In this document: piece after piece, positions 579 through 62,376 of the stretch
How positions within the stretch are numbered: position 1 is the stretch's first letter
How the letters are laid out: each line of letters opens with the position of its first letter
From: Thermococcus sp. CX2
GTDB taxonomy: Archaea > Methanobacteriota_B > Thermococci > Thermococcales > Thermococcaceae
NCBI RefSeq assembly: GCF_012027555.1
Contig: NZ_SNUQ01000002.1
Coordinates: 248,001 to 312,000, forward strand
Direction: 5' to 3'
Length of the DNA: 64,000 nt
Made by a program: the position numbers and the translations under genes
The notes under the pieces: generated by a model
What the model was told of the DNA's origin: nothing
What the model saw: only the letters and a program-made list of their open reading frames with translations
The model's database searches: none

Positions 579-1576
579 TAGGATTCCTAATTGCTGTCAC
601 AGCGATAGCGGGAGCTATAGTCTACGAATGGGGATTCCCGATGCTTATAAGGATAATCCTTACCCTCGGGTTCCTTGGCGTTACCCTGGCACTGCTCTTC
701 TTCACCGCGCTGACGTTCTACGCCGAGAGCTGGAAGTACGGCTTTATCCTGGCGATATTCACGGCGATAAGTGCCTATGGAACATACCTCAGCGCCACGT
801 GGCAGAACCTCAACATAGTCGCGGGGATAATAGTCTTCTTCGTTGCCATTCTGGCATTCGGAATCTGGTACATCAGCGAGCCGGATTTAGGCCTGGCCGA
901 CCGCTTCCGCTCGGCTGAGAAGCTCGAAAGGATGGGCAAGTACAAGGCCGCCGCCAGAAAGTACGAGAAGGCCGGCAACTACCTGAAGGCCGCCGAGATG
1001 TACGAGAAGCTCGGCTGGATGGAGAGCGCCGCCTGGGCCTACGAGAAGGCCGAGAAGTACGAGAAGGCGGCCGAGATATACGAGGCCCTCTATGAGAAGG
1101 AGAAGGACACCTACTACCTCAAGGAAGCCCACGAGTACTGGAAGAAGGCAGGAAACATGGACAGGGCAGCTAAGGCCCTTGAGAAGTACGCCGAGGAGGA
1201 GCCCTGGTTCTGGGAGGACGTCGCTAAGCTCTACGAGGATCTCGGCAACGAGGAGAAGGCCAGGGAGGCATGGGAGAAGGCACTGGAGTACTACACCAAG
1301 GAAGCCGAGGAGGAGGGCGTCTTCTGGGAGGACGTCGGAAACATAGCAAGGAAGCTCGGAAGGGAGGAGCTAGCAAAGGAAGCCTACCAGAAGTTCCTCG
1401 AGTACTGCCTCAAGGAGGCCGAAGAAGACCCGATGTGGTGGAAGCACGTCGCCGAGGCCTACGAATACCTGGGCGAGAAGGAGAAGGCTGAAGAGGCAAA
1501 GAAGAAATACGAGGAGTACAGGGCAAAGATTATGAAGGCGAACGAGGAGACGTCGAAGTTCCCCGCGGAAAGGTGA
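554..1576 (+). CDS. membrane-anchored TPR-repeat protein
   Basis: About four hydrophobic segments lie within residues 5-105. A cytoplasmic-looking region from about 115 to 330 follows, built of helical hairpins with TPR signatures such as KYKAAARKYEKAGNYLKAAEM and repeated A-x-A-Y-E-K units. The C-terminal repeats are rich in Glu, Lys and Trp. It probably scaffolds protein-protein contacts at the membrane; no partner can be named. The start is GTG at 554, with GGGGGTGA about 5 bases upstream, so translation begins inside ogt. A conserved unknown in Thermococcales as far as I can judge. Confidence 0.85.
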   Translation: MDKLKAYLIGFLIAVTAIAGAIVYEWGFPMLIRIILTLGFLGVTLALLFFTALTFYAESWKYGFILAIFTAISAYGTYLSATWQNLNIVAGIIVFFVAILAFGIWYISEPDLGLADRFRSAEKLERMGKYKAAARKYEKAGNYLKAAEMYEKLGWMESAAWAYEKAEKYEKAAEIYEALYEKEKDTYYLKEAHEYWKKAGNMDRAAKALEKYAEEEPWFWEDVAKLYEDLGNEEKAREAWEKALEYYTKEAEEEGVFWEDVGNIARKLGREELAKEAYQKFLEYCLKEAEEDPMWWKHVAEAYEYLGEKEKAEEAKKKYEEYRAKIMKANEETSKFPAER

Positions 1577-14987: not shown

Positions 14988-15899
14988 ATGACTATCAAGA
15001 CTCCCCCCACCCTGAACATAGCAGGATTGGGCGCTGACCCACTCACCCAGAGGATAAACGAGAAGCAGAAAAAGTGGAAGTACAAGATAGCCGTCCTCAG
15101 CGGTAAGGGAGGCGTTGGGAAGAGTACCGTCGCGGTGAACCTCGCCGCTGCCCTTGCAAAGAAGGGTTACTTCGTCGGAATCCTCGACGCGGACATACAC
15201 GGGCCGAACGTGGCAAAGATGCTCGGTGTCGAGAAGGCCGACGTCCTCGCTGAGAGGATGGAAGACGGCAGGTTCGAGATGATTCCACCGATGAACGACT
15301 TCCTTGGCCAGACTACACCGATAAAGGTTATGAGCATGGGCTTTCTCGTTCCCGAGGATCAGCCGATCATCTGGCGTGGGGCCCTCGTCACGAAGGCCAT
15401 AAAGCAGCTCTTCGGCGACGTCAAGTGGGGCGAGCTGGACTTTATGATAATTGACTTCCCGCCGGGAACCGGCGACGAGATCCTCACCGTCACTCAGACC
15501 CTCCAGCTCGACGCGGCGATAATCGTCACGACTCCCCAGGAGGTTGCTCTCCTCGACACTGGCAAGGCCGTCAACATGATGAAGAGGATGGAAGTGCCCT
15601 ACATAGCCGTCGTCGAGAACATGAGCTACCTCATCTGCCCGCACTGCGGCAACAAGATCGACCTCTTCGGGGAAGGAGGTGGAGAAAAGCTCGCCCAGAA
15701 GGAGGGCGTTGACTTCCTCGGTAAGATACCCATTGACCTCAAGGCCAGGGAAGCGAGCGACGCAGGAATCCCGATAGTCCTCTACGAGGACACCATGGCT
15801 GCAAAGGCCTTCATGGAGATTGTCGACAAGCTCATAGCCAAGCTCGAGGAGATGAAGAAGGACGAGGAAGAGAGCACTGAGGAATCCAAGGAAGAGTAA
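14988..15899 (+). CDS. Mrp/Nbp35-family iron-sulfur cluster carrier ATPase
   Basis: A 303-residue P-loop ATPase of the ApbC/Nbp35 group, which delivers [4Fe-4S] clusters to apoproteins. The deviant Walker A SGKGGVGKST is at residues 38-47 with the signature lysine present. DIHGPNVAKMLG and DFPPGTGDE are typical. The cluster-binding CPHC pair is at Cys217 and Cys220. The C-terminus is a highly acidic tail. GGAGGTGG lies before the ATG, and ACTTTTAAG at about 14943 is a likely TATA box. The oxidoreductase complexes upstream would be natural clients. Confidence 0.93.
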   Translation: MTIKTPPTLNIAGLGADPLTQRINEKQKKWKYKIAVLSGKGGVGKSTVAVNLAAALAKKGYFVGILDADIHGPNVAKMLGVEKADVLAERMEDGRFEMIPPMNDFLGQTTPIKVMSMGFLVPEDQPIIWRGALVTKAIKQLFGDVKWGELDFMIIDFPPGTGDEILTVTQTLQLDAAIIVTTPQEVALLDTGKAVNMMKRMEVPYIAVVENMSYLICPHCGNKIDLFGEGGGEKLAQKEGVDFLGKIPIDLKAREASDAGIPIVLYEDTMAAKAFMEIVDKLIAKLEEMKKDEEESTEESKEE

Positions 15900-15927
15900 A
15901 ACCTTTAAGCCCTTTCTCCCTATTCTT

Positions 15928-15996
15928 CACCGCGGCCGAGGCCGGCGGGCGCCGTTGCCGTGAGGCCGCGCTGGACCTGGCTACATTAACTTTTTA
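15928..15996 (+). ncRNA. GC-rich structured RNA candidate, possibly H/ACA-like
   Basis: A sharply GC-rich block in an otherwise AT-rich gap. It folds as a long hairpin: lower stem CGCGGCC (15931-15937) with GGCCGCG (15964-15970), an internal loop of GA opposite GUGA that could form sheared G-A pairs like a kink-turn, then GGC/GCC and CGGC/GCCG below a GGGC loop. An ACA triplet follows at 15983-15985 and a T-run at 15990. CTTTAAG at 15903 lies about 24 bases before the hairpin, right for a TATA box. Family assignment is uncertain: I could not build a standard pseudouridylation pocket. Confidence 0.5.
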
Positions 15997-16029
15997 ACCA
16001 GACTTGGGTATTTCACTGGGAGGGATAGA

Positions 16030-17394
16030 ATGAAGCGCGCCCTCGTTCTCATGCTCATCATCCTACTCACCATTCCCTTCGTTTCTGGGGGTGAGCTGAC
16101 TTACTATCCCGACCAGAAGGCATTTCAGGCTTTTCTAAGCTCCAACGCCACTTACAGGGTGGTAGGAGGAAACGAGACGTGGGCCAAGGCATGGGCGTAT
16201 TACGTCGATGAAAAGCTCTCAACAGTGAAAGAAAGGGGAAACGAAACGCTCGTTCTCGTCGGGAACGTCTATAACAATCCCATGATAAAAGCATTCTGGC
16301 CCAAGACCGGCCTGCCGGAAAACGCCTCCCTTCTGCCTTCCGTCATCGTGCTCAACGGGACGGTTCTCATAACCGGCACGGAAGAGAACATCTATATGAC
16401 AGAAAGGGCATTCGAGGAGCTCTGGAATCCACCAGTGGAATCTCAGGTAAGCTTCGCAGTTCTGCTCGCTCTAATAGCCATCGTTTTCATGCTCGCCCTC
16501 AGAAAGGATAAAACCTACGCTGGCAGTTTCTACGCTCTGACCCTGTCCCTATTCGTACTGTGGTACCTCACGGCCCAGATCCCAAGAATGAGCGAAGTTT
16601 TCCTCCAATACTTCCTCCAGGGCCTTAAATTCGCAGTTGGGGGCTCACCGGATTCTCCCCTGGGAGCGATACTCGGCGGATTCTTTATGGTTGTAAGACC
16701 CATTGAGGAGAACCTCGTCTTCGCCCACTGGGTACTCATCCTTCTGCTCATATCTTTCTCCTTTTACATAGCACCGAAGCGCGCTCGGGAACTGGGATTC
16801 ATAGTCTTCGGCCTGAGCTTCGCCTCGCCGATGTTCAGGAACTACCTCCACCATCTCGACGGAACCACCCTCGGCTTGGCCTTCTTCTTAATCACGCTGG
16901 CGATAATAAGCAACATACCTTTCTCGCCCAACAAAGTGAAGGCCTTCCTCCAGACCCTCATACTCTCGACGTTCACCCTATTGACCCTGGCAATAAACCC
17001 ATACCTCGCCGCGATTCCGCTCCTCTTCGTCATGGTATTTCCCAAGAGGCACCTAAGAAACTATGCATACCTGCTCATGACCGGCGTTGGACTAGCGCTC
17101 CTATACGTCTACTTTGGCCTCCCAATTGGTGTGCCGAGGCACGTGAACCCCAACGGCTGGCGATACCTGGCGAGGTTCCTCCTGAACACGGCGCTAGCGA
17201 TTCTCGTCATAGTTTACGCGGTGATCTACAGAGAAAAAAGCACAAAGATGAGGGGCCAGACGCCCTTCCTGATGATGATGGCGGCAATTTACATCCCGCT
17301 AGCACTTTTTATTCCGGAGTTGCTGCCTTACTGCTTCATAATCCTTTCCTCACTCGTCGCGAGGATGATCTACATACTCACACTCCAAACTTGA
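16030..17394 (+). CDS. multi-pass membrane protein with signal peptide, function unknown
   Basis: 454 residues: a signal peptide (about 1-20, ending FVSGG), an extracytoplasmic domain to about residue 138 with several N-x-T/S sequons, then about nine hydrophobic segments. The soluble domain resembles an S-layer-associated or cell-wall-binding-2-like substrate domain only loosely. The start ATG has GGGAGGGAT upstream, and ACTTTTTAACC at 15988 could be its TATA box as well as the terminator of the RNA before it. The end overlaps the convergent DUF2110 gene by 17 bases. Confidence 0.75.
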   Translation: MKRALVLMLIILLTIPFVSGGELTYYPDQKAFQAFLSSNATYRVVGGNETWAKAWAYYVDEKLSTVKERGNETLVLVGNVYNNPMIKAFWPKTGLPENASLLPSVIVLNGTVLITGTEENIYMTERAFEELWNPPVESQVSFAVLLALIAIVFMLALRKDKTYAGSFYALTLSLFVLWYLTAQIPRMSEVFLQYFLQGLKFAVGGSPDSPLGAILGGFFMVVRPIEENLVFAHWVLILLLISFSFYIAPKRARELGFIVFGLSFASPMFRNYLHHLDGTTLGLAFFLITLAIISNIPFSPNKVKAFLQTLILSTFTLLTLAINPYLAAIPLLFVMVFPKRHLRNYAYLLMTGVGLALLYVYFGLPIGVPRHVNPNGWRYLARFLLNTALAILVIVYAVIYREKSTKMRGQTPFLMMMAAIYIPLALFIPELLPYCFIILSSLVARMIYILTLQT

Positions 17395-22239: not shown

Positions 22240-22302
22240 GACCGATGATGGCAACAGGGTAGCTACCGAATTTGATGTGGAAGCCGTTCCAGTCTGAGGT
22301 TA
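22240..22302 (+). ncRNA. C/D box sRNA candidate
   Basis: In order: box C-like ATGATGG (22245-22251), D'-like CCGA (22266-22269), C'-like TTGATGT (22272-22278) and box D CTGA (22294-22297). Spacers are 14 and 15 bases. GACC before box C can pair with GGTT after box D as the terminal stem. CTTTTTAAGGG at about 22210 is a TATA-like site about 25 bases upstream. Only box D is perfect, so confidence is moderate. It lies between two genes and touches the convergent stress-protein stop. Confidence 0.5.
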
Positions 22303-61252: not shown

Positions 61253-61853
61253 AACTTTGCTAGCGCAAAGTTTGATCAAAAGTCTCTTTCTCTTTTAACT
61301 GGCCCGAAAATTGGAGCGTGCACTTTAAAAACAGCTATTTAACATGAGTTTAACTTTAAAGCAGCTAGTTACGCAGTTTCACGTTTTATTCTGGCGTCCT
61401 TCGGACGCCTTGTCGAGAGTGAAACCTTATAAGATGGCAATTAAAGCTGTAAACCCTTCTAAGAAAAAAGTGAATAAAACAGGACATACGAACTTTGGTG
61501 AAACTAAGCAGGTAAAGCTTGGGGGTGTGGGGGCGTTAGCCCCCCTAACAACCTTTGCTTGCGCAAAGCTTGACCAAAGGGTTCAGTCTCTAAGATTGTC
61601 AAAGTTCGTAGTGCACCCTTCAATAATCCTGCCTTTAAAAAGCGATTTTCTGATTAATCTTGGCTTTTAAGAGAGTTCGCTTTCTTTTGACGCTCGAAGG
61701 GCGTCGTACTTTGAGGGACTCGATAGAAAATCCGGGCTGTTTGATGCTGAAATCACCATAAATCAACCGTTTTAATAGGTGCACGGACTCAGAAGAAAAA
61801 ACTAAAAAGGAGTCAAAATTTTCCGCCAGCGCTTGCGCAAGCAAGGGCTGCTG
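61250..61853 (+). repeat. hairpin-rich non-coding region with dispersed repeat copy B
   Basis: Bases 61551-61853 correspond to copy A at 25319-25671 and share its ordered landmarks, ending TTTCCGCCAGCGCTTGCGCAAGC. The left part holds further hairpins: AAACTTTGC/GCAAAGTTT at 61252, GGCGTCC/GGACGCC at 61393, and GGGGGC/GCCCCC at 61529. Frames of 108 codons (plus) and 69 codons (minus) exist, but both span the hairpins and lack ribosome sites, so I do not call genes. The whole is AT-richer than the flanks. Confidence 0.6.
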
Positions 61854-61899
61854 GTCAGGGGCCGATTAGCTCATCACACCTCAGTTACCTACCCTCACA

Positions 61900-62376
61900 T
61901 CATCCCAGGCCGAGCATTTCCCTTATCTCGAGCGGGATGAGGCCTATCTTCGGGAAGACGAGTAAAGCTTTGTCCTCGACAGCATAGGCTGGAACGCAGG
62001 GAATTAGCCCGTAGGGGGTCGGATAATCCGGATCAGGGGCCCAGTTGTTGTCGCCCCATGTCACGAAGCAGAGCTCCTCTTTACCGCCCAGCTTAACGGT
62101 TTTTATCTCCCTGACGCGGTGGATTATCGGGTACTCGTAACCCGGGCGCTTGTAGACGATAACGTCGCCAACTTTAATCTCGTCCGCGTTGTTCTCGTCA
62201 ATTCCTTTGAGAAGAACCACATCACCTCGGTAGAAAACAGGCTCCATGGAGCCGCTCACGACTATGACCAGGGGCGATTCGGTGTGAAGGATGACTTTGA
62301 GGCCAAACTGGAGAGCAAAAACGGCTATGAGCGCGATTAAAATCCACGCTACATCCTTTTTCCATGACTCTTCCAT
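61900..62376 (-). CDS. signal peptidase I, archaeal S26B type
   Basis: A membrane peptidase that removes signal peptides outside the cytoplasm. 158 residues: a transmembrane segment at about 10-30, the nucleophile in VVSGSMEPVFYRGDVVLL, and the histidine of YPIIHRV replacing the bacterial lysine, followed by FVTWGDNN. The start is ATG 62376 (MEESWKKDVAW) behind GAGGCG. It overlaps the DUF531 gene upstream by 28 bases, so the two form an operon. Confidence 0.93.
   Translation of the reverse strand: MEESWKKDVAWILIALIAVFALQFGLKVILHTESPLVIVVSGSMEPVFYRGDVVLLKGIDENNADEIKVGDVIVYKRPGYEYPIIHRVREIKTVKLGGKEELCFVTWGDNNWAPDPDYPTPYGLIPCVPAYAVEDKALLVFPKIGLIPLEIREMLGLG

Follow-up and report, generated by a model that had tools for sequence, protein, structure and literature searches.

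The 64,000-nucleotide stretch of Thermococcus sp. CX2 DNA analysed here (the window) carries, between a gene for an Mrp/NBP35-type ATPase and a gene for a membrane protein, a locus that on comparative evidence belongs to a real, conserved and single-copy RNA family. The gene would encode a small, stable RNA about 57 nt long whose 5' end is the hairpin itself. Judged from its sequence, the RNA is H/ACA-like in anatomy and stands outside the H/ACA rules; its function is deduced and its target is uncertain. The best explanation, to which we give a little less than even weight, is that the RNA would be bound by L7Ae and act as a minimal H/ACA-like guide, with its tail as the only guide.

The distribution of the family was determined with a covariance model built from 24 sequences and run on 94 Thermococcales genomes and on 21 genomes from elsewhere in the phylum. 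The model gave a single strong, full-length match in each of 51 of the 94 Thermococcales, covering five of the six genera, with E-values from 1e-10 to 1e-21 (28/61 genomes in the window's genus, g1; 9/9 in g3; 6/13 in g4; 7/7 in g5; 1/1 in g6; 0/3 in g2). No second copies were found in the Thermococcales genomes searched, and the covariance-model search found no RNA in the 21 further genomes. An extra match to the tail in genome G060 was rejected as a second copy, as it coincides with the opposite-strand reading of a tRNA gene, and a pattern search of genome contigs gave seven matches, one of which, in an actinomycete, was taken as chance. A DNA search of the 61 genomes of the window's genus gave strong matches downstream of the Mrp gene in about 26, and in the remaining genomes the hairpin is absent along with its own TATA box. 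The RNA has been lost repeatedly and, because so many genomes are now without it, it is dispensable. Genus g3 includes P. abyssi GE5, whose copy lies at 1388647-1388706 on the minus strand; in the genome that we take to be T. kodakarensis KOD1, the RNA lies at 1818111-1818170 on the plus strand. Decayed, truncated remnants of the hairpin are present after the Mrp stop codon in G003 (L028) and G015 (L027), with the downstream promoter intact.

In the window, the Mrp/NBP35-type ATPase gene (14988-15899, plus strand; PF10609, E 3e-96) is a neighbour only, and the membrane-protein gene (16030-17394, plus strand), for which no Pfam family was matched, is the RNA's conserved neighbour, being homologous to the gene that follows the RNA in P. 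abyssi (E 1e-9). In Pyrococcus, rpS6e takes the place of the Mrp gene on the upstream side; in P. abyssi the RNA follows rpS6e and precedes the membrane-protein homologue, and a DUF2110 gene on the opposite strand comes next, as in the window. The Pyrococcus homologue of the membrane protein (L258 884-1645) is without the N-terminal half. Elsewhere in the window there are two C/D box sRNAs, sR22 and sR36 (22241-22299, plus strand, and 61853-61907, minus strand). A scan for bacterial promoters and terminators gave no matches, as expected in an archaeon.

A sequence-only reading of the locus had proposed a GC-rich structured RNA with its own promoter from a TTTAAG box, a stem, a GA/GUGA internal loop, an ACA and a T-run, and all of these elements were found where it had placed them. 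GC content rises to 0.82 in 15925-15974 from about 0.42-0.62 in adjacent windows. The GA stem pairs CGCGGCC (15931-15937) with GGCCGCG (15964-15970); its 5' strand (15930-15939, plus strand) comprises the base at 15930, these pairs and the kink-turn bases G15938 and A15939, and its 3' strand (15964-15971, plus strand) ends in a C.C mismatch at 15971. Above it, the upper (C-)stem (15940-15958, plus strand) is formed by G15940-C15958, C15942-G15957 and CGGC 15943-15946 with GCCG 15951-15954, with a variable loop at 15947-15950 and a UU bulge at 15955-15956 (both plus strand). The kink-turn bulge L1-L3, in which L3 is U15961, occupies 15959-15963 (plus strand) together with G15962 and A15963, and the internal loop thus sets GA (15938-15939) against GUGA (15960-15963). 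The hairpin had been called fully pairing; the stem does pair, but the UU bulge, the internal loop and, in this species, the basal C.C mismatch are exceptions.

Folding energy was rejected as evidence for the RNA, since it is no better than that of shuffled sequence (z -0.76 for 15900-15996 and -0.45 for the RNA itself). The evidence beyond chance is comparative. Among 36 distinct sequences (alignment A2), 94.8% of cells are paired, against 87.9% in shuffles, and seven pairs are altered on both sides, in 27 cells, a covariation that none of 500 shuffles reached. Fitting to the model biases this alignment towards pairing; a structure-free alignment gives the same sign, with three pairs altered on both sides. 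In the upper stem, for example, column pair 13-29 changes from C-G to U-A in nine sequences and column pair 17-23 from C-G to G-C in ten. Together with the 51 covariance-model matches, this bears out a GC-rich structured RNA, and pairing at syntenic positions in related genomes, which the reading had offered as a check on itself, was found to be conserved.

The GA stem comprises ten layers including the two kink-turn layers (columns 1-10 with 34-43), of which the lowest, the tenth, is mismatched (C.C or U.C) in the clade of the window. A10 and G34, which form the A10.G34 kink-turn position, are invariant among the 36 distinct sequences, as are G11-C30, a pair of the C-helix, and U33 of the bulge, while the second sheared position, 9.35, is G.A in 13, C-G in 22 and C.A in one. 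By sequence this is a textbook kink-turn of the L7Ae-binding type, and the earlier suggestion of such a resemblance is supported to that extent, with L7Ae binding itself as a prediction.

The 14-nt tail that follows, UGGACCNGGCUACA, is almost unchanged over five genera and is better conserved than the loop. In the window it reads UGGACCUGGCUACA (15972-15985, plus strand; columns 44-57 of A2), ends in the ACA at 15983-15985 and is the proposed guide. Seven of its 14 columns are invariant and only column 50 (tail position 7) is freely variable; conservation ends at the tail, and the stretch from there to the start codon is unconserved. Such conservation argues against the view that the RNA is a decaying canonical guide which, though it keeps its fold, has ceased to work. 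Repeated loss in g1, the remnants in G003 and G015 and a misplaced, variable ACA would all fit such decay, but the compensatory changes, the invariant kink-turn core and the almost invariant tail imply continued selection, and we regard a relic as very improbable.

The ends of the transcript can be approached through the promoter. An RNA-gene TATA box, CTTTAAGC (15903-15910, plus strand), which contains TTTAAG at 15904-15909, was assigned by its spacing to the stem and its loss along with the hairpin. Across the family, 31 of 42 loci have a TATA box centred 23-30 nt 5' of the stem, which upholds the proposed promoter. The usual archaeal spacing from TATA box to start is well established, and at that spacing transcription would begin at the stem; in the window the start is predicted at 15929-15931 (plus strand), at or just 5' of the first stem base. 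The spacer between TATA box and stem is not conserved, and the sequence upstream of the stem is probably not transcribed. The G020 copy (L007) has a long upstream region and no clear TATA box at the usual distance. At the other end, the T-run (TTTTT, 15991-15995) had been counted as part of the RNA gene. It forms the promoter core (TATA box) of the downstream gene and is no terminator, because CATTAACTTTTTAAC persists in genomes that have lost the RNA and still precedes the downstream gene in most genomes of the genus without the hairpin. The corresponding promoter in the window, ATTAACTTTTTAACC (15986-16000, plus strand), lies outside the RNA and is likewise retained in genomes without the hairpin.

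This promoter also bears on the proposal that the kink-turn hairpin is a cis-acting leader, the 5' UTR of the membrane-protein gene, through which bound L7Ae or another ligand would control translation. Such a leader would suit Pyrococcus (g3), g4, G044 and G048, in which the tail runs to a Shine-Dalgarno sequence and start codon with no clear promoter between, and it would be in keeping with the window and P. abyssi sharing a homologous downstream gene but not the upstream one. However, in most g1 species and in g5 and g6 a separate TATA box stands between the tail and the next gene, yet hairpin and tail are equally conserved there, and the lack of conservation between tail and start codon also speaks against a leader. 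As the RNA is kept whether or not the next gene carries its own promoter, we consider a leader unlikely overall, though plausible in those genomes that have no clear promoter between RNA and gene.

In productive archaeal H/ACA folds, the GA stem has ten layers and the ANA follows it after 14-15 nt (PMC4652768). The RNA shares the kink-turn in the upper stem and the 10-layer GA stem, and it departs from these folds in the ANA spacing and in the lower stem with its two-sided pocket. Its ACA, which 29 of the 36 distinct sequences have intact, follows the GA stem at a distance of 11 nt, and some species have ACG, GCA, AUU or ACU in its place; no conserved ANA was found at 14-15 nt after the stem in these 36. 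The earlier reading of the ACA as a box is thus upheld only in part. The lower stem and two-sided pocket are judged absent, since the upstream sequence is unconserved and, by TATA spacing, probably outside the transcript; a 5' guide is likewise lacking, because the spacer upstream of the stem is unconserved. With a spacing of 11 nt and without a lower stem, the RNA is not classifiable as an H/ACA sRNA.

At Rfam cut-offs, cmscan placed no family at the locus or in eight relatives (Hgc, SscA, Pab19 and C/D sR included). Of the Rfam models, Pyrobac-1 (RF01722), an archaeal sRNA with the same layout of hairpin and GA/GUGA loop, comes closest for two members, but both scores are below the cut-off of 40 bits (16.9 for the window, 20.3 for L236), and the P. 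abyssi member gave no match to this model. The sequence-only reading could fit the RNA to no known class; Rfam agrees, but the anatomy brings the RNA nearer to a known class, that of H/ACA-like RNAs lacking a lower stem, and the nearest of these are the sRNAs of Pyrobaculum. As described in PMC4652768, sR203-sR210 are, like the RNA, single hairpins with a kink-turn, a 10-layer stem, no lower stem and a single-stranded tail. They retain a guide on both the 5' and the 3' side and, for the most part, 14 nt before the ANA/NCA; the Thermococcales RNA, unlike them, would begin at the stem and has a spacing of 11 nt. With the canonical Thermococcales H/ACA sRNAs (Pab19, Pab35, Pab40, Pab91, Pab105, Pab160) it shares a kink-turn or kink-loop, a 10-layer GA stem and an ACA, whereas it has no lower stem, no RNA-formed internal pocket and no Rfam H/ACA match. 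Pab19 itself, an H/ACA sRNA, is encoded immediately upstream of 16S rRNA (L156 5692-5795, minus strand).

Two P. abyssi RNAs deserve comparison. PabO1 is presented in PMC4652768 as a highly expressed H/ACA-like candidate with a strong promoter, a 9/10/9 fold and a misplaced ANA, and we would guess that it is the P. abyssi copy of the RNA (1388647-1388706, minus strand). Its 12-13-nt matches to tRNA-Pro are without a U at the proper place; the 10-layer stem would shift U22 of tRNA-Pro into place. The PabO1 targets listed there include tRNA-Pro(CGG), with which the RNA's tail pairs incompletely. sRk11, about 50 nt long, conserved in Thermococcales, with a TATA box at the right distance, has been detected by northern blots (Phok 2011, PMC3124441). 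Its locus likewise folds into a kink-turn-like, GC-rich hairpin at the 5' end, which has a GA/GAUGA internal loop and is followed by a tail; it differs in position (197484; L255 around 915-988, minus strand) and in sequence. Identity of the RNA with sRk11 was rejected by these coordinates, and covariance model R1 gives no match to sRk11. The two may nevertheless form a class of stem-first H/ACA-like RNAs.

In the preferred reading of a minimal guide, L7Ae would bind the kink-turn, as expected from established kink-turn knowledge, and the RNA would join Cbf5/Nop10/Gar1. The lower stem and 5' guide having been lost, the tail would serve as sole guide strand and pair with the substrate just 5' of a target uridine. 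The substrate could, as a guess, be the D-arm of tRNA-Pro with U22 in the pocket, and this D-arm is suggested as the best target among tRNAs and rRNAs. Tails with A7 or G7 pair 12/12 with tRNA-Pro positions 13-21 (UAGCUUGGUCUA), with U22 adjoining, so that U22 comes to sit beside the stem, at the place taken by the target in an H/ACA pocket. Pairing of 12/12 next to a U occurs with any tRNA in 0.35% of natural 12-mers and, rRNA included, in 0.1% of shuffled tails, figures that are optimistic since tRNA-Pro was picked after looking at tRNAs. The four natural variants of tail positions 1-6 are all compatible with GGUCUA-U of tRNA-Pro, and tail changes at positions 2, 4, 5 and 12 all preserve the pairing. 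The window's tail and the g4 tails, with U7, lose one pair; a pairing of 11/12 is reached by chance with some tRNA by 21% of natural 12-mers and next to a U by 5.7%. As the window's own tail mismatches one base, the tRNA-Pro target is only a lead. Loss of the RNA together with U22 was not seen: U22 is present in all 54 tRNA-Pro(UGG) genes found, and tRNA-Pro does not differ in genomes that lack the RNA. No full-length match to the tail was found in rRNA; two 23S sites fit all guide variants, but need several G-U pairs.

Complementarity to D-arms would also be expected if the RNA were a trans-acting, L7Ae-binding non-guide whose tail is antisense to, or sequesters, tRNA D-arms (His, Gly, Pro) or mRNAs. 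The P. abyssi tail is complementary over 14 nt to tRNA-His and over 13 nt to tRNA-Gly and tRNA-Pro(UGG), G-U pairs allowed; such binding requires no target U, and the ACA distance is unsuited to H/ACA. As the D-arm consensus is common to many tRNAs, however, chance matches are likelier: 12/12 with some tRNA is attained by 1.7% of natural 12-mers. In this species tRNA-Asp matches well, but it is constant where the tail changes and was rejected as a specific target, its D-loop being identical in genomes with differing tails. A non-guide would also leave the 10-layer GA stem purposeless, and we hold it to be as improbable as the leader.

According to PMC7668247, U22 of the P. furiosus tRNAs is presumably pseudouridine, and the enzyme for archaeal tRNA Psi22 is listed as unknown (PMC6313347; PMC2584109). 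A one-sided H/ACA-type guide, whose pocket is completed by the substrate tRNA, could make this orphan Psi22 of Thermococcales tRNA-Pro, although in this full form the idea is a long shot, somewhat less probable than the leader or the non-guide. The RNA is nonetheless a named candidate for the modification. It is also a new conserved RNA family, missing from Rfam, and is carried by organisms for which genetic tools exist. It departs from the geometric rule dividing H/ACA RNAs that work from those that do not and keeps the other anatomy, which bears on how much of a guide is needed.
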